The notes under the pieces are model-generated. The model was not told the DNA's origin. It made no database searches and saw only the letters and a list, made by a program, of their open reading frames with translations. From NCBI GenBank assembly GCA_964036045.1, contig OZ038381.1, positions 66,030,242 through 66,094,241 of the forward strand: DNA of 64,000 bases, in the 5' to 3' direction. Origin of the DNA: Eutreptiella sp. 'Long Island Sound 2002'. Taxonomy: Eukaryota > Euglenozoa > Euglenophyceae > Eutreptiales > Eutreptiaceae. The position numbers were made by a program, and so were the translations under genes. Positions 999 through 48,840 of this stretch are shown one piece after another. Position 1 is the first letter of the stretch. Each line of letters begins with the position of its first letter.

Positions 999-2185
999 TT
1001 GGCGGAGCGCAGCCGAAACCCGAGCCCAGGCACACACACCCACACTGCACACCCGAGGCAGGAGTGGCAGGTAACAAGCTGGGCGCGCCCACAAACACAC
1101 ACACACCCCAAACACCCCAGCCAGGAGTGGCGGGGTGCCGCGGAAACTCGAGCCCAGGCACACACACCCACAGAGCACACCCGAGCCAGGAGTGGCGGGG
1201 TACAAGTGGAGCGCGCACACAAGCACACACACACCCCGACACCTGAGCCAGGAGAGGCGGGGCGCAGGCGCAACCCAAGCCCAAGCACACACATCCACAC
1301 TGCACACCCCAACCAGGAGTGGCGGGGTACAAGCGGAGCGCGCCCACAAACACACAGACAGCCAAACACCCCAGCCAGGAGTGGCGGGGCGCAGCCGAAA
1401 CCCGAGCCCGAGCACACACACCCACGGCGCACACCCCAGCCAGGAGTGGCGAGGTACAAGCGGGGCATGCCCACCAACACACACACACCCCAACACCGAA
1501 GCCAGGACTGGCGGGGCGCAGCCGCAACCCGAGCCCAGGCACAAACACCCACACCGCACACCCCAGCCAGGAGTGGCGGGATACAGGCGGGGCGCACCCA
1601 CAAACACACACAAACCCCAACACCGCAGCTAGCAGTGGCGGAGCGCAGCCAAAACCCGAGCCCAGGCACACACACCCACAGAGCACACCCCAGCCAGGAG
1701 TGGCGGGGTAAAAGCGAGGCGCGCCCACAAACACACACACACCCCAACACCCCAGCCAGGAGTGGCGGGGCGCAGCCGCAACCCGAGCCCAGGCACACAC
1801 ACCCACACCGCACATCCCAGCCAGGAGTGGCAGGGTACAGGCGGGGCGCGCCCACAAACACACACACACCCCAACAGCCCAGCCGGGATTGGCGGGGCGC
1901 AGCCGAAACGCAAGCCCAGGCACACACACCCACACCGCACACCCCAGCCAGGAGTGGCGGGGTACAAGCAGAGCACGCACACAAACACACACACACCCCA
2001 ACGCCCCAGCCGGGAGTGGCGGGGCGCAGCTGAAACCCGAGCCCAAACAGACACGACCACCCGCCACACCCCAGCCAGGAGTGGCGGGGTACAAGCGGAG
2101 CGCGCACACAAACACACACACACCCCAACGCCCCAGCCAGGAGTGGCGGGGCGCCGCCGAAACCCGAGCCCAGGCACACACACCC
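999..2185 (+). repeat. 63-bp minisatellite block, duplicate copy 1
   Basis: This is a tandem array with a period of about 62-65 bp. Each unit begins near CCAGGAGTGGCGGGG and continues through a CACACACA-rich half. Two unit types alternate (GGGGTACAAGCGG and GGGGCGCAGCCG), giving a higher-order unit of about 127 bp. The whole block is nearly identical to 3263-4449 at a constant offset of 2264. The long open frames across it on both strands follow from the stop-poor repeat unit and are not genes. Confidence 0.9.
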
Positions 2186-2341
2186 CGGGCCCCAAAACAC
2201 GAAAAGCAGGAGACAATGGGGGCGCAACAGGGATGGAAAAAAAAATCCAACAACAATCACAAACAGGGCAACCCCAGCCCGTAGGGGGCCGAATAAGCAA
2301 AGAGCGCACCAAGACCGGCCAGAGGAAAGGTGAGGCGCACC
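2181..2341 (+). repeat. 161-bp direct repeat, second copy
   Basis: Second copy of 834-994. It is followed by about 300 bp of sequence (2342-2640) found once in the window, then by more minisatellite. Confidence 0.9.
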
Positions 2342-2640
2342 AGAACGTGCCCGGGAGGCCGGCTCGCCCGACCCGGCCAAGAGGGGCACGCACACGCACA
2401 CACGCGCGGGACCCGGGCGTGGCGTCCTCCGACCCGAAAAGGGCGGTGTCGGCGTCCACACAAAACAGCCTCGGTGCACCGGCCGAGTCCCCCGTCGAAA
2501 GACGGGCGGTACGGGAAACCGGACACGTCAGTGACCAGGTTCACACACGTAAACCACCGCAGCGCACGCAGCCCAAGACCGACGCCGGAGGGACCTGCCA
2601 GGGACAACCCCTAGGGCACAGGAACAGGTGCCAGGCAACA

Positions 2641-5150
2641 CCCAACCCACAAAACACAAAGCCAGGAGACGTGGGGTACAAGCAGACGGAGCAGACCAAC
2701 ACACACACCCCAACACCCCAGCCAGGCGTGGCGGGGCGCAGCCGAAACCCAAGACCAAGCACAAACCCCCACAGAGCACACCCCAGCCAGGAGTGGCGGG
2801 GTACAAGCGGAGCGCGCACACAAACACACGCACACCCCAACACCCAAGCCAGGAGTGGCGGGGCGCAGCCCCAGCCCAAGCCCAAGCACACACACCCACA
2901 TCGCACACCGCAGCGAGGAGAGGCGGGGTACACACGAAGCTCGCCCACAGACACACACACAGCCCAACACCACAGCCAGGCTTGGCGGGGCGCAGCCGAA
3001 ATCCGAGCCCGAGCACCCACAACCACACCGCACACCCCAGCCAGGAGTGGCGGGGTACAGGCGAGGCGGGCCCACAAACACACACACACCTTAACACCCC
3101 AGCCAGGAGTGGCGGGGCGCAGCCGCAACCCGAGCCCAGGCACACACACCCACACCGAACACCCAAGCCAGGAATGGCGGGGTACAAGCAGGGCGGCGGA
3201 GAGGCGGGGTACACACGAAGCTCGCCCACAGACACACACACAGCCCAACGCCCCAGCCGGGATTGGCGGAGCGCAGCCGAAACCCGAGCCCAGGCACACA
3301 CACCCACACTGCACACCCCAGGCAGGAGTGGCAGGTAACAAGCTGGGCGCGCCCACAAACACACACACACCCCAAACACCCCAGCCAGGAGTGGCGGGGT
3401 GCCGCGGAAACTCGAGCCCAGGCACACACACCCACAGAGCACACCCGAGCCAGGAGTGGCGGGGTACAAGTGGAGCGCGCACACAAGCACACACACACCC
3501 CGACACCTGAGCCAGGAGAGGCGGGGCGCAGGCGCAACCCAAGCCCAAGCACAGACACCCACACTGCACACCCCAACCAGGAGTGGCGGGGTACAAGCGG
3601 AGCGCGCCCACAAACACACAGACAGCCAAACACCCCAGCCAGGAGTGGCGGGGCGCAGCCGAAACCCGAGCCCGAGCACACACACCCACGGCGCACACCC
3701 GAGCCAGGAGTGGCGAGGTACAAGCGGGGCATGCCCACAAACACACACACACCCCAACACCGAAGCCAGGACTGGCGGGGCGCAGCCGCAACCCGAGCCC
3801 AGGCACAAACACCCACACCGCACACCCCAGCCAGGAGTGGCGGGATACAGGCGGGGCGCACCCACAAACACACACAAACCCCAACACCGCAGCTAGCAGT
3901 GGCGGAGCGCAGCCAAAACCCGAGCCCAGGCACACACACCCACAGAGCACACCCCAGCCAGGAGTGGCGGGGTAAAAGCGAGGCGCGCCCACAAACACAC
4001 ACACACCCCAACACCCCAGCCAGGAGTGGCGGGGCGCAGCCGCAACCCGAGCCCAGGCACAAACACCCACACCGCACATCCCAGCCAGGAGTGGCAGGGT
4101 ACAAGCGGGGCGCGCCCACAAACACACACACACCCCGACAGCCCAGCCGGGATTGGCGGGGCGCAGCCGAAACGCAAGCCAAGGCACACACACCCACACC
4201 ACACACCCCAGCCAGGAGTGGCGGGGTACAAGCAGAGCACGCACACAAACACACACACACCCCAACGCCCCAGCCGGGAGTGGCGGGGCGCAGCTGAAAC
4301 CCGAGCCCAAACAGACACGACCACCCGCCACACCCCAGCCAGGAGTGGCGGGGTACAAGCGGAGCGCGCACACAAACACACACACACCCCAACGCCCCAG
4401 CCAGGAGTGGCGGGGCGCCGCCGAAACCCGAGCCCAGGCACACACACCCACGCCGCAGACCCGGGCCAGGAGTGGCGGGATACACGCGGAGCGCGCCGAC
4501 AAAGACAAACACACCCAACATGCAAGCCAAGAGAGGCGGGGCGCAGCCAAAACCGGAGCCCGAGCACACACAACCGCACCGCACACCCCAGCCAGGAGTG
4601 GCGGGGTACAAGTGGAGCGCGCACACAAACACACACGCACCCCAAAACCCCAGCCAGGAGTGGCGGGGCGCAGCCGCAACCCGAGCCAAGGCACCCAAGC
4701 CCACACCACACACCCTAGCCAGGACTGGCGGGGTACAAGCGGAGCGCGCCCAAAAAACACACACACACCCCAACACCCGGGCCAGGAGTGGCGGGGCGCA
4801 GCCTAAACCCGAGCCCAAGCACAAAGACCCACGCAGCACGCCTGAGCCAGGAGTGGCGGGGCGCAGCCGCAGCCCGAGCCAAGGCACCCACGCCCACCCC
4901 ACACACCCCAGCCAGGAGTGGCGGGCTACGTGCGGAGCACGCAGACAAGCACACACACACCCAAAAACCCCAGCATAAAGTGGCGGGGCGCAGCCGAAAC
5001 CAGAAGCCAAGCACACACACCCACACTGCACACCCCAGCCAGGAGTGGCAGGGTACAAGCGGAGCGCACACACAAGCGCACATACACCCCAACACCCCAG
5101 CCAGGAGTGGTGGGGCGCAGCGGAAACTCGAACCCAACCACAACCCAGAC
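2641..5150 (+). repeat. 63-bp minisatellite, main array
   Basis: The array has the same alternating 62-65 bp units as 999-2185, with more diverged units towards 5150. It runs directly into the conserved LINE tail at 5155, so I interpret it as part of the 3' untranslated region of a plus-strand LINE rather than as an independent satellite. 3263-4449 is the duplicate of 999-2185. Confidence 0.85.
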
Positions 5151-19870: not shown

Positions 19871-20680
19871 CCTGCCAGCGCAGCCGAGCTGCAGTGACAG
19901 CCATTCGCCACTCAAACAGCGTTCGGAAGCCACCTCCACCGTCCGACTCCTGATGTCTGTTTGTCTGCCTTGGAGAAGGAACGCCTTTCCTACACCCCGA
20001 GTACACCTGCCTGTCTGCGAGGCCCGGTGAAGGTTGAGTCCATGGGTGAGAGTCAGTGTGCACGCCCCAAGGACACCGTGATCATTCAGCAGAATTTGCC
20101 GAAGACCTAACCGACCCACACAGGCCAGGCTGACCTCCACTGACCCACCGCGGCACCACGCGAGACCACGGCACACCGCACCACAGCGCGCAACAGAGCA
20201 ACGCACCACAGCACGACGCGACGCGACGCGGCACAGAGCGGCACAACACGACACAACTGACCCTAACCTGAGGGACTAACCGAAGCCAGCCACCGCACAC
20301 CCGGGAAGGCGCCGCGCCACCACGCCACACACCAGCACCACAGGCCACACACGGGACCACAGCGCGCCAGGCGACAACGGTGACGGACCACCCAGAAGAT
20401 TACAGCCGGCACCGCAGAGGGGTAAGGACACGAGCAACCCCAGCCCCCTAACCCAAAACCACAAGCAGCCGCCTGGCGCAGCCGCCCAGCCGGCAGAGCC
20501 AGGACCTAACCCAGCAAGAAGGGGCGCCGAGCCCACCGTGTACAGAGCCCACCCGACCCATGGGGCCGGAACATGGCCACACAGAACGCAACTGAAGACA
20601 GCAACCCGGAAGACAACACTGAATACAGGCCAGTGCGTGCGCCAGCCCAGGGAAGGCAGAGGGAGGAACAGGCAAGCCCC
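19871..20680. other. No gene seen; GACGC and CACAAC simple repeats
   Basis: At 20205-20262 a run of GACGC words grades into CACAACACGACACAAC. The remainder is C/A-rich with no coding signal. It merges with degenerate LINE minisatellite sequence to its right. Confidence 0.5.
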
Positions 20681-20684
20681 CCCC

Positions 20685-20795
20685 CCCAAAAAAAAAAAAA
20701 AAGGAGGGGGGAAGGGGAAAAGGCACGAAAACAGCCCACAGCCGCCCAACCACCCGCCAACACCACCACAGGCGGCCAGGCCCCCCCCCCAGAAG

Positions 20796-20830
<35 letters not shown>

Positions 20831-21055
20831 GGGACTCCCGCAGAGGCACAGGGGAACCACCCACCCAAAACCGGCAACACCAAGCCAGTAACAGCGGACC
20901 ACGGGGAAAAGGGACACGGAAAAAAAAAAAAAAAAAAAAAAAGAGAGCCACCAGCCCAGCCCGCAAGAAAGGGGATGGAGGGACAGGGACCACAAAGCCC
21001 AGAAAAAAAAAAAAAAAGAAAAGAAAAAACCAAAGCGCAAAAAAAAAAAAAAACA
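20685..21055 (+). repeat. Clustered poly-A tracts
   Basis: At least five A-runs of about 13 to 31 bases occur within 370 bp, separated by C/G-rich sequence; the longest is at about 20797-20827. They lie inside a degenerate copy of the LINE 3' region. No open frame of note is present. Confidence 0.9.
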
Positions 21056-41005: not shown

Positions 41006-42833
41006 CACTGCACAAGCAAAGCAAAAGAAGGAACCCGGACACCGGTGACCAGGAGCCAAGTGGCCCAGGATACTGTACACACAACACAACACACCGAGCG
41101 GGCGCACCGGTGAACAGGGGCCAAGCGGCCCAGGACACTGTACACGCAACACAACAAACCACGCGGGCACACCGGTGAACAGGAGTAAAGTGGCCCTGGA
41201 CACCACACACGCAAAGCAACGCACCGAACAGGCACACCAGTGAACGGAGGCAAAGTGGCGCAGGACACCCCACAGGTAGCACAACCCACAGAGCCGGAAC
41301 ACCGGTCAACAGGAGCCAACTGGCCCAGGTCAGCGCAGACACAACACAAAAGACCGAGCGGAAACACCGGTGAACAGCGGCGAAGTGCCCCAGGACACCG
41401 CACACGCAACACAACATACCGAGCGGGCACGGCGGTGAACAGGAGCCAAGTGGCCAAGGACACCGCACCAGCAAAGCAATCTACTGAGCGCGCGCACCGG
41501 GGAACAGGAGTCAAGTGGCCCAGGACACCGCAGACGCAACACAACACACCAAGCGGGCACACCGGTGAACAGGAGCCGAGTGACCGAGGACACCACACAC
41601 GAGAATCAACGCACTGAGCGGGCACACCGTGAACAGGAGCCAAGTGGCCCAGGACACCGCACACGCAACACAACACCTAGAGCGGGCACGGTGGTGGACA
41701 GGAGCCTAGTGGCCAAGGACACCGCACCAGCAAAGCAACCTACCGAGCAGGCGCACCGGGGAACAGGAGTCAGGTGGCCCAGGACACCGCAGACGCAACA
41801 CAACACACCGAGCGGGCACACTGGTGAACGGGAGCCAAGTGGCCCAGGACACCACACACGCGAATCAACGCACTGAGCGGGCACACCGGTGAACAGGAGC
41901 CAAGTGGCCCAGGACACCGCACCAGCAAAGCAACGCACCGAGTTGGCGCACCGGTGAACAGGAGCCAAGTGGCCAAAGACGGTGTACAGGCACACAACAA
42001 ACCACGCCGGCACACCAGTGAACAGGAGCCAAGTGGCCCAGGTCACCGCACACGCAAAGCAACGCACCGAGGGGGCCCGGCGCCGAAAAGGACCCAAGTG
42101 GCCCAGCCCAACCGCACACACAACACAACATACCGAGCGGGCACACCGGTGAACAGGAGCCAAGTGGCCCAGGACACCACACACGCAACACAGCGCACGG
42201 AGCAGGCACACCGGTGATGAGCAGCCAAGTGGCCCAGGACACCGCACACACGTGCACACAAAGGGCGGCCGAGGGACAGGAAAGAACCAACACCCCATGG
42301 GTCGGACGCACTGGGGTGACCCAGCGGACCTAACGGGCCAGCAGCAGGGGCGGTACCCCAAGGCCGCTGGTCCCAGCCCGGGCAGGCCGAATCGGGGACT
42401 ATGGCAAACGTCACCCGGAGCCATGATATCAACCGGTGACAGGCAAGCTGGTACACAGTCCAGGAGGGGGTCGCCTGCCAAGCAGAGAGGCCCCGCAACT
42501 CAAGCCACAAGGGTGGGGCGGTCGTACCGTAGACTAGCGGGAGCAATACCCCTTGTGGTGAGAGATACTCCACGCGGCTGGGCTGCACCCAGAGCTGCCG
42601 CCCAAATGAGGGGGATGTGGGCCTTGCCATGGACACATGTGGGGACACCCTCCCACCTGGGATACCTGGACCGGTTGGCCGCGAGACTGCCTTCCCAAGC
42701 ACATGCGGGAGCCGCTTAAGAGGCCCCGGACATAGGGCAGTGGGAGCGACAGGACGTCCCCTTGGTAAGACCTTCTTCCTGCATTGTCAAATGAGGCATC
42801 CCAAGCTCCGGACAATACCTACCTACCCTACCA
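41006..42833 (+). mobile_element. 5'-truncated LINE 3' fragment, copy T3, with TSD
   Basis: It is flanked by a perfect 12-bp direct repeat CTACACTAGCAA (40994-41005 and 42834-42845), a target-site duplication. It consists of a tandem array (41040-42250, unit about 63-65 bp, beginning CACCGGTGAACAGGAGCC) followed by a 3' tail (42251-42833) with a GGGAGCCGCTT box near 42709, CCCCTTGGTAAGACC near 42760 and a terminal ACCTACCTACC. Only the 3' end of the element was inserted, as is usual for LINEs. Confidence 0.85.
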
Positions 42834-43187: not shown

Positions 43188-43226
43188 CCAACTGCTGGCA
43201 TGCTATCACCACCCACCAACGGCCCA
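43188..43226 (+). mobile_element. LINE-B sequence between PLE and DNA transposon
   Basis: Together with the 66-bp repeat 43122-43187, this short stretch is the only LINE-B sequence left between the two insertions. The same frame as at 37200 reads CWRYGPQALATQ and runs on to a stop just inside the transposon terminus. Confidence 0.5.
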
Positions 43227-43266
43227 CCCATGAGACCCACTGGGGGGGGTATTTTCTTCGAACGAA
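43227..43266 (+). repeat. Left 40-bp terminal inverted repeat
   Basis: It matches the reverse complement of 47857-47896 at 36 of 40 positions. The outer part reads CCCATGAGACCCAC and the inner part GGGGTATTTTCTTCGAACGAA. Two more TTCGAACGAAG palindromes follow at 43274 and 43294. No convincing target-site duplication flanks it. Confidence 0.85.
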
Positions 43267-44176
43267 CTTCAGTCTTCGAACGAAGATTCGAATCTTCGAA
43301 CGAAGATTCGAATTCGAAGATTGTATTTGCTTTAATCGCAATTCAAGTAAATCCAATCGAATCCAAGCTGCTGGGGAGAATTGCCGCAAAAGCGCAGCAA
43401 CAGCAGCGCGCGCACCAGATTGACAGGCGATTGACGCAGATCTGTGCCAGAAGGACACAGATTTGTGCCAGAAAGGCGCAGATTTGTGCCACAAAGAAGG
43501 GTCTTTGGTTGTTTCAATTGATTTGTTGTGTTTTTTAAGGGTGTTTTAAGGGTGCGATTTTTTTTCCTCCTCCGGCCTGGGACGCCAGCTTTCACATTCA
43601 ATGTACACACGAGTCAACCCAGGCGCTGACAAGCAGAGATTGAATCAACTTCTGCGTTTGCACAGCAATGCTCAATGCTCACCTGAAGAAGCAGTCGCTT
43701 TGCTTCTCGATTTGGGAATCCCTAGACGCCGCCTTTGGGTTCTATCGCGCTTTATTTCCAAGCGTGCGGACGTATGGTAAAAACAGACTGGCCTAAGGTT
43801 TGGGAAATCAATGCCAGGCAGCTGGGGAGTCAACCTGGCTTGGAAAGGGATGAAGGAGCCCCTGCACCTTGTTGGCCACATCGACAAGAAAAATGGCATC
43901 CCAAATGTCTTCTGGCCGTTTGATCACTGGACCAACTACGTTTTCACGCAGCCTTGCCTCTATGAAACTCTACAGCCCCGCAAAGATGGGTTGGTTTTCA
44001 TTGTGAGTGGCGATGGTTATCCTGTAGCAGGTGTAAGCTGGACTCAGCTTACCATTCGCATCCAAAATCTTGAGCATCCAGCCCGCAATGCAGCACACAT
44101 TTTGGTTTTGGAGCTGGCATACTGTGCTGACTCCAATCTGAAGGATTTGCGCCGGGTCTGGAAAAAGAATCTGAGG

Positions 44177-44294
44177 GTGTGTTTTGTCTTCGAATATTGC
44201 CTTCCTTCTAACCTTCGACCGTTCGAACGAAGCTTTTCCTTCGAACGAACGTGTTTTTCGAACAAAATTTTGATTCTTCTTTGCACGCTAGTAG
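44177..44294 (+). other. Intron 1 of transposase gene
   Basis: Donor GTGTGT after an AGG codon and acceptor GCTAGTAG before GTC join two open frames in phase 0. The 118-bp intron holds two TTCGAACGAA copies (44222 and 44240) and several TTCGAA half-sites. Confidence 0.7.
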
Positions 44295-45320
44295 GTCCTG
44301 CAGCGGATCATAACTACGCGATCCGTCGTCGTGAAGGCCGCACGCTGTGCCGCAAGTGTTATTCTGGACGGAGATTTACCGTTTTTGAAGAAGTTTTTGG
44401 GACTTACTGAGCATTGGTATATACCGTCAGTTCACAACTCGGGCCTTTGGAACCCTCTCAAGAGGCGGTACCTGGGCTGTCACCGGCGCAGAACGCGCAC
44501 CGGTGATGCGTCCCGACTTGGCAAGACCCCTGTCTGCAAGGGAGCTTGTCGCTGCGCTTCAAAACCTTTGCTTCAAGTACCACGACACCATGCCATTATT
44601 TGTGTTCTTCGTATGCTTATGGGAATTGGTGCTTTGCTTGGGGAATACTTGGAAAGGCTATGCTTGTCCGCCAGCAGGGAAGCACGCAACGCTATCAATA
44701 ACATGCTGAAGATTGCTCTGTGTGGTTGGCAGCCAGGTGGACCTTGTAGACCTGATGGACCAGAAATGAAGCGTTTTTTTTTATATGGGATGGTATTGCT
44801 CATGTTTTGGGGTTGGCCGACGGGCACTTGGGTAACTAGGCTGTAATGAGGTTGCGGGACGTGATGCAACGGCTTTATCGCACCTATCAGCGCATCGACA
44901 TTGACCTCCCAGCGGACTGTCGGCAGGCAGCCTGGGAATTTCACGCACACTGTTTGCCCAATACCCGTTCTCATTATCTGATAATCTTGGAGTTCGATGT
45001 CCCCAGAATCCTAGAGGTGATAGCACCTTACGGGCTTGGGATGTGCTGCCAGGACTTGGCTGAAACCACGAATGCCAAGCTAAAGGATTTCTACTTGCGG
45101 TTCACAAACAGAGGGGGCAGCACCACAGATGACTACCAGCTCTCTGCTCTACTACAAACCATGGAGCATGCCTTCATGTACACGCCTCCCATATTGTAGC
45201 TCACGGTACAACGCGCCCAATCTCTTGCCCAAACGCTACATTGTTCGAATCTTTAATAGACGATGCCGCTCAATGGTGCTGACAAGGGAAGACAAGGCCG
45301 ATGTCGCAAGACTCGTGGCG

Positions 45321-45488
45321 GTATGTGTTATCCTCCAGGCCCTGCAGGCATGCATTGTAGTCCTTCGAGTTTAGTCTTCGTTCGAATCTTCGAATCCTCG
45401 AACGAACTCTCGTTCGAAGACTTTTCTTCGTTTGAATATTCGAATCTTCGTTCGAAGATATTTTTCGAATCTTTTGTGCTGTGCTCAG
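45321..45488 (+). other. Intron 2 of transposase gene
   Basis: Donor GTATGT and acceptor GTGCTCAG join ADVARLVA to ELLQAHPTSAP in phase 0. The 168-bp intron contains about four full or near-full TTCGTTCGAA palindromes plus half-sites. Confidence 0.75.
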
Positions 45489-46367
45489 GAGTTGCTTCAG
45501 GCGCACCCAACTTCTGCCCCAGCGTCACGATCATCACCAGGAACACCTTCTCAGAGTAGTACACAAGTGGCTCAGCACCCAGCGCCACAGCGTTCACCGG
45601 AGTTGGAGCCGTCACCATCCCCTTCTCGCCGTTTGGATGACCCGCTAGATTTTGGATCCCAGGATTCAGAAGAATATCATCCGGATTACGTTGTGGTGAA
45701 CGAAGTGTTTGATGTCAGCGCCGAGTTCCACACTTGCCGCCAGGTCATCGTAGAATCTGGAGTCACCCGCCCCTACGTTGACCTCATTCTAGTGAAATCG
45801 GTACCCAATCCGCATACGCCCATTTTCGGGGACCCGAAATACGCTTGGCTTACGCCACTGTCAACCTATGAGCGCTGTTTCCGAAAGTGTTTATCAGCCG
45901 ATTGCAAAGATATGGCTGTGGAGAGGGACTTGCTTTGTGCACTGGTTGCCCGCGCCTTTCCATTTCGCAGTCCCGATTAAAAAAGGCACCCCAACCCCGA
46001 TTATACGTCTGCTTGCGCTTGTTTGGCACGCCTACGGCGTAGTGGAGAGCTGGCGTGAAGACTGTACCGTGATGCTCAGATTCTCATCCTCAGAGCCCCC
46101 AGAGTGGGGCAAATGTACATCAACGGGCCGCTTGAAAGGCGTCAAGGTCACCGCTCAGGCTCGGGGTGGTGGTGAGGCAGCCCAGTCGGCCGAAGGAGCG
46201 CAGGAAGCCGGGGGAGTACAACAAGTGCAAAGCACAACACCGTCGAAGTGGCGGACGGTGCTCCAGGCAGCAGTTGCAGCAGGAGTGCAGCATGGCTACA
46301 TGGGAGGGGACATTCCTGAATGGGAGGTACCGCATTTACCTTGTAGCTGAGCGCTTTTGACCATGCA

Positions 46368-47523
46368 TGCGTCCTGTACGTTATTCTTCGAAAACCATTC
46401 TTCGTTTGAAGAAAAAAAGTTCGTTCGAACATTCGAATCTTCGAACGAAGATTGTATTCGAAGTCTTTTACCGCTCCACTGCCCACAGGTTGCAGCAACG
46501 CAAACTAGCGCTGTTGGCGTCAGGCGGAAGTCTCAGCTACCAGGTCGTGGATTCGAGACGACCGTGATTGCGGGCAGCCTGCTGAACGACCTCCTAACGA
46601 AGCCTGCGAGAGCACTGACGGTACTCAGAGCACTCCAAAACCATGAAGAAGGTCGCAGAAAGGTGAAGTCGATGCCAACGTGGGTCAACCTGAGCCAGGG
46701 TGGTTCCACGTTGCATTCCCCTGAGGCAACCGAACAAAAAGCGTCGACAACCAGCGCTGGTGTGCGGGGGAAAGATCCACAACCTGTTGTGTCCGGACGA
46801 CGGGCAAAGAACCTTGCCGAGATTCTCTCGTCTTACAAGAAGACAAGAAAGCCGAAGAAGAGACCGCGAGCGAAGCCAGCGGCTAAGCAACCTCCAACGA
46901 AAAAGGCAAAGCTGCTGCCGGGTGAGAGTTCGGAGACTGAGGAGTTCGAAGAGACTGAAGAAGATGAGGAGGAGGAGCCGCCTTCCGGAGATGAGGAGGA
47001 GGAGCCACCTTTCGGAGATGATGACGATGAAGACAAAACTCAGAAGACACAGATTCCAGACCGAGGGGCACTGCCGTGGGCATGGCTTCCCCTCCAACAA
47101 GAGGACCAGTGGGGAGCGTGGAGAGGAGTGCCCATTTCGAAGTGGCGCCCCTGGCGAACGGAGATACCCAGAGACATCCTGCAGCAGAAGACCAGACTGG
47201 GCCGTGCCGGTACAATCTATTGGGTCCCTGCAGACTACAAGTCTGCCGTGTGGCATTCCGTGGGAGAGTATTGTGTTGCGGCCCGAAGCTACACAACGGA
47301 GGAGGAGTGCAAAAGCACGGCGGCAGTGGCGTCGGCAACTGGTGGCGTGCGGGCTCCAAGTGCCAGGAAGAAGAAAGTGAAGGAGAAGAGGCCAAAGAAG
47401 AAGAGGAAGACGCCAACGAAGAGTGGTGGCAAGCCGGAAGAAGAAGATGCCGGAGAGGGAGACAAAGAGGATACAGAAAAGAAAGATGAGGTTGCAGTAC
47501 AAGTGTCAGGCAGTGAGTCGTGA
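46368..47523 (+). CDS. Second transposon gene, acidic/basic protein
   Basis: The proposed start is ATG at 46368: MRP, then an intron (46376-46488), then VAATQTSAVGVRRKSQLPGR onwards to the TGA at 47521. This gives about 348 codons without interruption. Features in order are a Lys/Arg-rich nuclear-localisation-like stretch (SYKKTRKPKKRPRAKP), a strongly acidic stretch of Glu and Asp with SGDEEEEPPFGDDDD, a Trp-rich folded patch (GAWRGVPISKWRPWRTEIPR, WVPADYKSAVWHSVGEY), a second basic patch (KKKVKEKRPKKKRKTP) and an acidic end. No domain is recognised. As the only intact reading frame of the element it may be a DNA-binding accessory protein; this is inference. Confidence 0.6.
46376..46488 (+). 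other. Intron 1 of second transposon gene
   Basis: Donor GTACGT three codons after the ATG and acceptor GCCCACAG lead in phase 0 to GTTGCAGCA. Two full TTCGAACGAA-type palindromes and flanking half-sites fill the 113 bp. Confidence 0.65.
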
Positions 47524-47586
47524 GCCAGGACTGAGAAAGTAGCATTGGACAGGGACACTGGTGGTTGTGCGGTTCTGTTGTTGCCT

Positions 47587-47690
47587 GTATGTGCATTTGT
47601 AAACGCCGCTTCGTTTTCTTCGAAAAATATCTTCGTTCGAACATTCGAAGGTTCGTTCGAAGAAAAGTCCACCTCATTTCGAAAACACAG
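47587..47690 (+). other. Probable 3'-UTR intron with terminal palindromes
   Basis: GTATGTG and AAAACACAG bound 104 bp that contain TTCGTTCGAA at about 47631 and 47651. The donor is the same seven bases as in the 45321 intron. No reading frame confirms the junction. Confidence 0.4.
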
Positions 47691-47856
47691 TTTCAGGGCA
47701 TTTGGGCGGTTGCAGGCTGAATCCAAAGAACCAAAACCTCAATAATACCTGTGTTGAGCATCTAATCACAATGTTTGCAGCCAAACAGCCACCCCAAAGG
47801 CGTTCGAACAGTGCCAGAATTTTCTTCGTTTGAAGAAATAATCTTCGTTCGAAGGT

Positions 47857-47896
47857 TTCGTTCGAAGAAAATACCCCCAGCGGTGGGTCTCTTGGG
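47857..47896 (-). repeat. Right 40-bp terminal inverted repeat
   Basis: Partner of 43227-43266. A further TTCGTTCGAAG lies just inside at about 47843, and a shorter form at about 47800. Confidence 0.85.
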
Positions 47897-48840
47897 CACG
47901 CTACCCTGGAACAACAACGGTGGCTACGTACACACTTCGAGCAGGCTTCGGCGGAGGACACGGCCACAGTTACGTGGGGACGGAACACCACAGCGGAATG
48001 GAGATTCCATCGGGGAGCGTGGGACAGCAAACACCCAGCCATTACCTTCCCGGTGCTGGACAAACACCGCAGTACCACAGCGGAGGCCCCGGCCTAACAG
48101 GTTGAACACCACTGCTCCCAAGTCCAGGACTCGCAGACAATCGAATGGACCACATTCCACCCACAGAAGGTGTAACTGCTCCAATATGTGTACGGCTATC
48201 TCACGCAAGGCCGCGAAGGGAACAACGACTATGTACCCATGAACCCAGCAGCGACCGAGATCATCCACCATGGAATAGGCGTCTAGGCTACCCGAAGGCT
48301 CCAACCGGCCACCACCAGGCCATATGCCACCTCAGAGCAGGGGGCGCAAGTCCACGCCTACCAGCTGACAACACCGTGCCGTCTGCCATGCCCAGACGAC
48401 CGCAACACTGTCATCTTTGCGGATGCCTCCAGCACCAGGAACGTCACCCCAGCGGCCGGGGCGGCAGCCTTGGAGCTACGGACGGACAGGGCGGGCCGAC
48501 TACACCAACACCACCTCACCGGGGCCATCATCTTCGGCCCCTCCTCTCACAGAGAACTAGAAAAGCTGGCGATCATCATGGACACCATCAACGACACCCA
48601 CCAACAACCGCGAGACCACACGCACCATGTGTGAGTCGTAGTAGACGCAGCAGTTGACTTCCAGATCGTCCGCAAACTGGCCTGACAGCCCCTACACAAG
48701 GCAACCGACTCCAGCCTGGGCACCCAAGCCCTACTCCTCTGGGTGGCTTCACAGCGCATCCCCAAGCACGTCGTCTTACACCTCGTCAAGCAAGAGTCCC
48801 ATCGTTACAGCCTGGGCAACGGACACATAGACTTACACGC
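47897..48840 (+). pseudogene. LINE-B RNase H domain
   Basis: After the transposon the LINE continues with HATLEQQRWLRTHFEQASAE-like coding. The RNase H domain starts near 48400 in one frame: NTVIFADASSTRN (first Asp, codon 48422), SHRELEKLAIIMD (Glu), VVVDAAVDF (second Asp) and HLVKQESHRYSLGNGHIDLH (final H and D). Two in-frame TGA codons (near 48636 and 48684) break it. It corresponds to the RNase H of LINE-A but keeps the motifs in a clearer form. Confidence 0.75.

Follow-up and report, generated by a model that had tools for sequence, protein, structure and literature searches.

A decayed copy of a high-copy transposon occupies positions 43227–47896 of the 64-kb stretch of Eutreptiella DNA analysed here (the window). 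The element is a transposon with terminal inverted repeats, apparently of the cut-and-paste type, and its predicted introns carry paralogous copies of its own subterminal palindrome array (Table 1). In the 2.28-Gb genome of the same organism, 190 DNA matches to the transposon were counted; 23 copies were aligned, and a consensus was built from nine near-identical young copies. The full length in other copies is about 4.76 kb (~4,756 bp); the window copy (L001) is missing ~90 bp near 43544–43552 and has stops or frameshifts in both ORF1 and ORF2. Both ends were read out in 23 copies, with terminal inverted repeats present, and the end starts with CCCATGAGAC in 21 of 22 copies and with CCTATGAGAC in L019. 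The target-site duplication is 2 bp long in 21 of 22 copies, with no clear base preference; no 2-bp duplication was seen at the two deletion-derivative sites checked.

Table 1. Features of the transposon copy in the window.
Feature	Position	Strand	Details
Decayed transposon copy	43227..47896	+	190 own-genome DNA matches, 23-copy alignment
Left target-site duplication (CA)	43225..43226		2 bp
Right target-site duplication (CA)	47897..47898		2 bp
5' terminal inverted repeat	43227..43266	+	40 nt, 90% complementary to 47857-47896
5' subterminal motif array	43257..43322		Three exact motifs, core at 43275-43304
ORF1 exon 1	43552..44176	+	5' part missing in window copy
Intron 1	44177..44294	+	GT-AG, phase 0, motif array; removal restores frame
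ORF1 exon 2	44295..45282	+	Frameshift near 44775 in window copy
ORF2 first exon	45273..45320	+	ATG overlaps ORF1 stop
Intron 2	45321..45488	+	GT-AG, phase 0, two inverted array cores
ORF2 second exon	45489..46326	+	Decayed in window copy
Intron 3	46327..46488	+	GT-AG, phase 0, motif array oriented opposite to intron 1
ORF2 third exon	46489..47523	+	Tail basic and acidic
Putative intron 4	47587..47696	+	3' untranslated region, motif array
3' subterminal motif array	47825..47866		
3' terminal inverted repeat	47857..47896	-	

A preliminary description of this DNA had reported two near-palindromic partners, TTCGAACGAA and TTCGTTCGAA; these are reverse complements of each other and thus a single motif. 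All 17 exact TTCGAACGAA sites of the nine-copy consensus lie in the ends (three in each) or in the introns (11 sites, distributed 3, 3, 3 and 2 over introns 1 to 4) and none lies in an exon, in agreement with the arrays originally noticed at the ends and inside introns. In the window, the exact motif occurs 13 times, always within 43257–47866, where shuffles expect 0.04 copies; when one mismatch is allowed, 20 copies are found inside the element and three elsewhere. The earlier count of at least 14 copies therefore holds for one-mismatch sites and not for exact ones, and the confinement of the motif to the element holds for exact sites and not for one-mismatch ones. The motif had also been said to make up the 40-bp termini. 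The inverted repeats are indeed 40 nt long and each end has three motifs, but no exact copy falls in the terminal 30 bp on either side, the arrays being located just inside the tips.

Frame analysis of the copies shows that ORF1 and ORF2 are open only after removal of introns 1–3, and both spliced ORFs are intact in 7 of the 23 aligned copies. Introns 1 and 2 coincide with those proposed initially (44177–44294 and 45321–45488), and their removal restores the frame. The third had been placed from 46376, but the frame has a stop before this position, so that the intron starts at 46327, and a GAG/GT..CAG/GT junction at 46327/46488 restores the frame. For the probable fourth intron the start at 47587 is retained and the end moves from 47690 to 47696; since it lies downstream of the ORF2 stop, its GT-AG ends constitute its entire support as an intron. 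GT..AG borders are present at introns 1, 2, 3 and 4 in 21, 22, 22 and 21 of 23 copies, respectively. Silent changes are in excess among shared ones in both ORF1 (p=7e-4) and ORF2 (p=2e-12), which supports the gene model. Open frames by themselves also allow an unspliced reading, with separate ORFs and the arrays between them, as the frames continue into the introns. This reading is disfavoured by the slightly negative codon scores of introns 1–3 (-0.03 to -0.18) and by the intact spliced ORFs; exon edges tested in frame score positive. The protein matches searched included no spliced-junction peptide. ORF1 has no Pfam family and no sequence match in the PDB, the element has no Pfam transposase match and no recognised DNA-binding domain, and the AlphaFold model of exon 2 has a mean pLDDT of 36, too low to be of use.

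The intron arrays share more with the ends than the motif. A core, M-NN-TTCGAA-NN-M, in which M is TTCGWWCGAA, is common to the 5' end and five of the arrays in introns. Over the six arrays compared, 325 of 330 motif bases of the core are identical (98.5%), a value inflated by the choice of the cores by motif, as against 21 of 60 spacer bases (35%) and 34 of 60 bases in the WW centres. An outer TTCGAA, not part of the core definition, is found at the same offset in five of the six arrays. The 3' end of the consensus has only three M and lacks this core. From the 5' end through intron 4 the cores are spaced about 1.0–1.2 kb apart, and the arrays of introns 1 and 3 are in opposite orientation, as a DNA site permits. 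Likeness beyond the motif was scored for array pairs against 400 motif-fixed shuffles. The score was reached by none of the 400 for the 5' end and intron 3, intron 3 and the 3' end, and introns 1 and 3, and by few for intron 4 and the 3' end (3/400), the 5' end and intron 2 (5/400) and intron 2 and the 3' end (6/400). Counts were higher for introns 2 and 3 (19/400), intron 1 and the 3' end (32/400), introns 2 and 4 (37/400), the 5' end and intron 4 (73/400), introns 1 and 2 (134/400) and the 5' end and intron 1 (381/400). Because some pairs beat the motif-fixed shuffles, descent from terminal sequence is supported, and the array at the ends is the probable source from which those in the introns were copied.

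Substitutions were divided, by site class, into those shared between copies, which reflect the active lineage, and private ones. At the stricter cut, shared-to-private counts are 15:232 for introns, 6:91 for ends, 67:968 for nonsynonymous and 95:362 for synonymous sites. Changes in the active lineage thus accumulated in introns at a rate like that of nonsynonymous sites and ends and far below that of synonymous sites (p=6.6e-8 for introns against synonymous sites; p=1.1e-5 with CpG removed), and selection therefore seems to act on the introns, as if the element needed them. With shared defined as at least two copies, the intron deficit is smaller (64:232 versus 146:362 at synonymous sites, p=0.03; p=0.82 against the UTR). 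Inside the introns, motif bases (5:94) are not clearly more constrained than the remainder (10:138). This test with a synonymous yardstick was run after a simpler site count, which at three copies gave p=0.025 for intron versus UTR and p=0.054 for intron versus exon, and at two copies gave nothing.

The sequence comparisons point, with about even probability, to introns that house putative internal binding sites for an end-binding protein of the element, in arrays that would have begun as terminal copies. A protein encoded by ORF1 or ORF2 would bind the end array and assemble the transposition complex; the same protein would bind the internal arrays and thereby regulate its own expression, or bridge or compact the element. 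The arrays would sit in introns because splicing strips the palindromes from the mRNA. Internal binding sites were among the roles suggested in the preliminary description, and they gain indirect support from the slow evolution of the introns at the stricter cut and from the core common to introns and 5' end. A more demanding version, in which the introns are cis-acting DNA parts of the transposition machinery, copies of the end array having been moved into the genes, become introns and been kept for full activity, appears somewhat unlikely; a need for several internal arrays would explain the absence of short end-only derivatives in the sample. In favour of internal binding sites, a deletion derivative present at two unrelated sites has lost 551 bp of exon; intron 4 is kept and the cores of introns 1–3 are present, one copy having a single changed base in the intron-4 core. 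Against them, another copy, of ~2.15 kb (L042), lacks introns 2 and 3, although a single copy does not show that the element moved in this form.

The arrays could instead act in the pre-mRNA, intron hairpins helping or regulating splicing and the ends carrying the sequence separately or because they are transcribed. The constraint does span whole introns, beyond the motifs, and folding is stronger than the shuffle mean in intron 1 (z -2.2), intron 4 (-2.9), the two ends (-4.1 and -1.9) and the array-bearing portions of introns 2 and 3 (-5.4 and -5.1). Such folding is, however, expected of any palindrome, and 110-nt segments taken from the element have a mean of -28.0 kcal/mol, a stability that introns 1 and 4 do not exceed (-27.3 and -25.2 kcal/mol). 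An action in RNA is unlikely, the unit moreover having opposite orientations in introns 1 and 3 and the motif being present at either end of the DNA. Binding by a host transcription factor or chromatin protein, with the arrays as enhancers or boundaries for the element genes, we regard as quite unlikely. Purifying selection on the intron arrays is silent on which protein binds, but in a 36-Mb sample of the genome the 68 motif matches that have another one no more than 60 bp away all belong to seven clusters, which are element copies, and the 22 single motifs are fewer than the 38–69 given by a random-letter model, a pattern with no sign of host genes using such arrays.

The introns might also be fossils, terminal fragments that inserted into genes and were tolerated through splicing, with no present role. 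Some intron arrays do match the ends in letters beyond the motif, and an origin of introns from elements with terminal inverted repeats is known in other protists, as the available text of PMC9860276 reports. Fossils would drift, whereas at the stricter cut these introns change no faster than amino-acid-changing sites and their motif bases stay at 98.5% identity with spacers fallen to 35%; nor were free short elements or host-intron copies found in the samples, and this explanation is highly improbable. Those samples also bear on the introner-like behaviour proposed at the outset, of which the descent from terminal sequence is retained for some pairs in the shuffles; the short mobile elements, expected in host introns as non-autonomous copies, did not appear among the sampled ends, modules or single motifs. 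Of 443 exact ends, the first 100 yielded 28 pairs shorter than 6 kb; none of these is a short element (MITE), the shortest spanning 2,846 bp. All ten solitary or odd-looking modules retrieved (eight of the 12 single-module clusters and two others) lie inside element copies, and eight of the 22 single motifs, also retrieved, comprise one element-end stump and seven unrelated sequences; neither set includes a host intron with an array. The samples therefore argue against introner-like spread. A protein search for sister families, in which intron and end motifs might be seen to change together, returned only close relatives of the element (65–100% identity), and a genome search with exon 2, with 122 of 6,087 candidates scored, gave copies at 95–99%.

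The plant CACTA (En/Spm) transposons have a short target duplication, two proteins, subterminal regions crowded with a short motif repeated in either orientation and ends that start with CACTA or CACTG. The present element resembles them in its short target duplication, its two proteins and its subterminal motif repeats, three exact ones per consensus end, and differs in its tips (CCCATGAGACC), in the lack of a Pfam transposase match and in the recurrence of the arrays in introns. In phage Mu the transposase binds an internal enhancer in addition to the ends, but this is one phage site as opposed to several intron arrays here. The Drosophila P element has its internal sites near the ends and an 8-bp target duplication, and the excerpts available do not describe its third intron as bearing end sequence. 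Introners of DNA-transposon origin, related to elements with terminal inverted repeats in the portions available of PMC9860276 and PMC7789003, are short, non-autonomous and spread over many host genes, whereas the arrays described here are, in our samples, only inside the element. Nonconventional introns of euglenids have inverted repeats and a proposed MITE-like origin (PMC4770533, in the part available) but no GT-AG borders, which the introns of the element possess. Among the open-licence PMC papers listed by literature searches, no title or abstract opening described an autonomous DNA transposon with end arrays inside its introns.

The role of an intron is commonly sought in RNA; the introns described here seem to be retained for what they do as DNA in a mobile element. 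They also seem to be descended from the ends of that element, which would tie intron gain to transposon ends in a concrete case where the autonomous element itself is available.

Every one of the 13 exact occurrences in the 64-kb window of the motif formed by TTCGAACGAA and TTCGTTCGAA, which are a single motif read on its two strands, lies within the element under study (0.04 expected), bearing out the preliminary description, which had noticed the palindrome nowhere else in the window. The element is one copy of a repeat: a DNA-level search of its own genome (assembly of 2.28 Gb in 2205 contigs; window on contig 4) gave 190 matches, including 24 near-full-length places; loci were cut out for 30 places, and the 23 copies having both ends were aligned. 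It measures about 4756 bp, starts with CCCATGAGAC in 21 of the 22 copies checked and in 21 of these 22 has a 2-bp duplication at its borders, without clear base preference. The window copy is decayed (identity to other copies 90–96%) and its inverted ends span 40 nt with 90% complementarity. Nine copies (loci L004–L011 and L013) share mutual identities of 99.2–99.7% and are, as this near-identity indicates, a recent burst. Two close-lying pairs of copies are perhaps segmental duplications (see table).

Locations of the features discussed (L numbers, loci fetched from the same genome; C1 and C5, contigs 1 and 5)
Feature	Location	Description
Element under study	window 43227–47896	
Tandem array	window 41039–42249	65-bp unit, 18.6 copies
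Long stretches, one strand T-poor	window 1001–5000 and 20001–21000	AT skew +0.74 to +0.80; 61–68% GC
Array cores of 5′ end, intron 1, intron 2 (two), intron 3, intron 4	consensus 49, 1060, 2237/2287, 3280, 4492	
Expanded 5′ end	L033 200–310 (C1:122931890–122932010)	20-bp array unit tandemly expanded
Close-lying pair L002/L003	C5:21432912 and C5:21477627	near-identical sequence, 45 kb apart
Second close-lying pair	C1:198968813 and C1:198989516	equal end spacing, 21 kb apart
4206-bp derivative L056	C1:93075550	
4206-bp derivative L057	C1:137021590	
10-mer cluster	C1:8490702	element copy by core spacers and spacing
Different short cluster L050	C1:34762590–34762940	GAATTCG/CGAATT repeats around one TTCGAACGAA, dissimilar to element

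When introns 1–3 are excised from the consensus built on the nine young copies, two reading frames result: ORF1, interrupted by one intron, has 563 aa, and ORF2, interrupted by two, has 639 aa and starts at an ATG overlapping the stop of ORF1. In 7 of the 23 copies neither frame is broken. The spliced gene model is supported by changes shared among copies, which for the most part arose in the active lineage and are mainly silent, whereas private ones, mostly dating from after insertion, are not: silent:changing ratios for changes in at least three copies versus private changes are 21:17 versus 165:427 in ORF1 (p=7e-4) and 74:50 versus 197:541 in ORF2 (p=2e-12). Introns 1–3 have slightly negative codon scores and exon edges scored in frame (exon 1 end left out) positive ones, and the unspliced run-on of ORF1 beyond intron 1 scores 0.005 versus 0.09 for exon 2 there. 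GT..AG borders introns 1, 2, 3 and 4 in 21, 22, 22 and 21 of 23 copies, and of the 122 places in the genome that were scored with exon 2, 106 contain no stop in that exon. Intron 4, which follows the ORF2 stop, is putative and proposed from its splice signals. ORF1 has no match in Pfam or among PDB sequences and the relatives retrieved by protein searches are all close and unnamed; ORF2 gave just two weak low-complexity Pfam matches, below family cut-offs. Among predicted proteins, P0071 combines the ORF2 tail with a segment annotated as reverse transcriptase (PF00078), perhaps reflecting insertion of a copy into or next to a retroelement. In P0067 and P0060, internal deletions fuse the ORF2 tail in frame to ORF1 exon 1 and to exon 2, respectively; fusions of this type might act as repressors.

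Of the 17 exact motif sites in the young consensus, six lie at the ends (three each), nine in introns 1–3 (three each), two in intron 4 and none in exons. Array sites keep fixed spacing, and six arrays (5′ end, intron 1, two in intron 2, intron 3 and intron 4) could be aligned on a 30-bp core, M-NN-TTCGAA-NN-M, where M is TTCGWWCGAA; the 3′ end has three M at a spacing different from the core. Motif identity across the six cores reaches 325 of 330 comparisons, a figure inflated by selection of the cores on the motif, versus 21 of 60 for core spacers. Five of six arrays also have, 7 bases beyond the core, an extra TTCGAA that was not used for selection. When motifs were fixed and the remaining letters shuffled 400 times, 9 of 15 array pairs had scores reached by at most 12 shuffles, including 5′ end–intron 3, intron 3–3′ end and intron 1–intron 3 (0/400 each) and 5′ end–3′ end (2/400). 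The worst failing pairs were 5′ end–intron 1 (381/400), intron 1–intron 2 (134/400) and 5′ end–intron 4 (73/400). Part of the similarity may come from the motif being longer than defined, with a C preceding TTCG and a G following CGAA. The arrays are read here as copies of one terminal unit, oriented in intron 1 opposite to intron 3. Two extra tandem units in L033 indicate that arrays can grow by duplicating units.

Selection was assessed on 31 sequences, comprising the young consensus, 20 other loci and L032–L041, with L003 (near-duplicate of L002) and L031 (part of L041) left out; L032–L040 were chosen for an exact core, which biases these loci toward intact motifs. With private changes as the mutation yardstick, shared (at least three copies):private counts are 15:232 in introns, 6:91 in ends, 67:968 at amino-acid-changing sites, 95:362 at silent sites and 22:145 in untranslated parts. 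The intron ratio departs from that of silent sites (p=6.6e-8; 1.1e-5 with CpG removed), is weakly distinct from that of untranslated parts (p=0.021; 0.058 with CpG removed) and is indistinguishable from that of amino-acid-changing sites (p=0.89). A cut of at least four copies gives the same outcome (introns 8:232, silent 77:362, p=1e-8); at least two copies gives a weaker one (64:232 versus 146:362, p=0.03; versus untranslated parts, p=0.82). Intron 2 alone counts 0:80. The introns appear constrained as whole units. Within them motif (5:94) and remaining letters (10:138) show no difference; it is the motif-versus-spacer identity of the array cores that ties the constraint to the motif.

The 24-base core pattern has 1138 genome matches (palindromic ones counted per strand) and its reversed control none. 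The first 100 form 33 clusters on contig 1, built from 80 matches, the other 20 being the same places on the other strand. All ten core places fetched (8 of 12 single-core clusters and two with odd or tandem cores) lie inside element copies; one old copy of ~90% identity (L031/L041), picked for its odd spacers, keeps all motif bases of the intron-3 core and differs at 2 of 4 spacer letters. The bare 10-mer occurs 5308 times versus 9638 for its reversed control and is thus not enriched overall, clustering being the signal. Of its first 100 matches (36.3 Mb), 78 fall in eight clusters and 22 are single, versus 38–69 single ones expected at random. Seven clusters are element copies, six of them by sequence; the eighth (L043) comprises three scattered matches without similarity. 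Among eight single 10-mers fetched, one is the stump of an element end and seven lack DNA similarity.

The preliminary description had envisaged short non-autonomous elements with these termini. The 22-base end occurs 443 times in the genome, and the first 100 ends form 28 pairs less than 6 kb apart, none a short element of ends alone and the shortest spanning 2846 bp. One shorter copy (L042, ~2.15 kb) keeps introns 1 and 4. The 4206-bp derivatives occur at two sites whose flanks differ; they share an identical 551-bp deletion in the last exon of ORF2, retain intron 4 and have equal offsets for the cores of introns 1–3; a clean 2-bp duplication was absent at both sites.

Comparison of the copies demonstrates, at the sequence level, that the 5′ end and the introns carry one conserved array family, whose motif also occurs at the 3′ end. 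A role of the arrays in RNA would agree with their folding: every array stretch outdoes the mean of its shuffles (z −1.9 to −5.4), as is typical of palindromes. Alternatively, a host factor could bind the arrays. CACTA elements carry motif arrays in subterminal regions; the tips of the present element differ from theirs, and no CACTA-type protein was recognised. Excerpts of published accounts place internal transposase sites of the P element near its ends (PMC7776569) and describe introners derived from TIR elements as short copies within host genes (PMC9860276, PMC7789003). Among the papers listed by searches of the open-licence literature, none was a case of end arrays within introns of an autonomous element. 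We favour binding of the array by an element-encoded protein, which at the ends would build a transposition complex; the internal arrays would serve regulation or bring the ends together, and introns would be the location where such palindromes leave the proteins unharmed.
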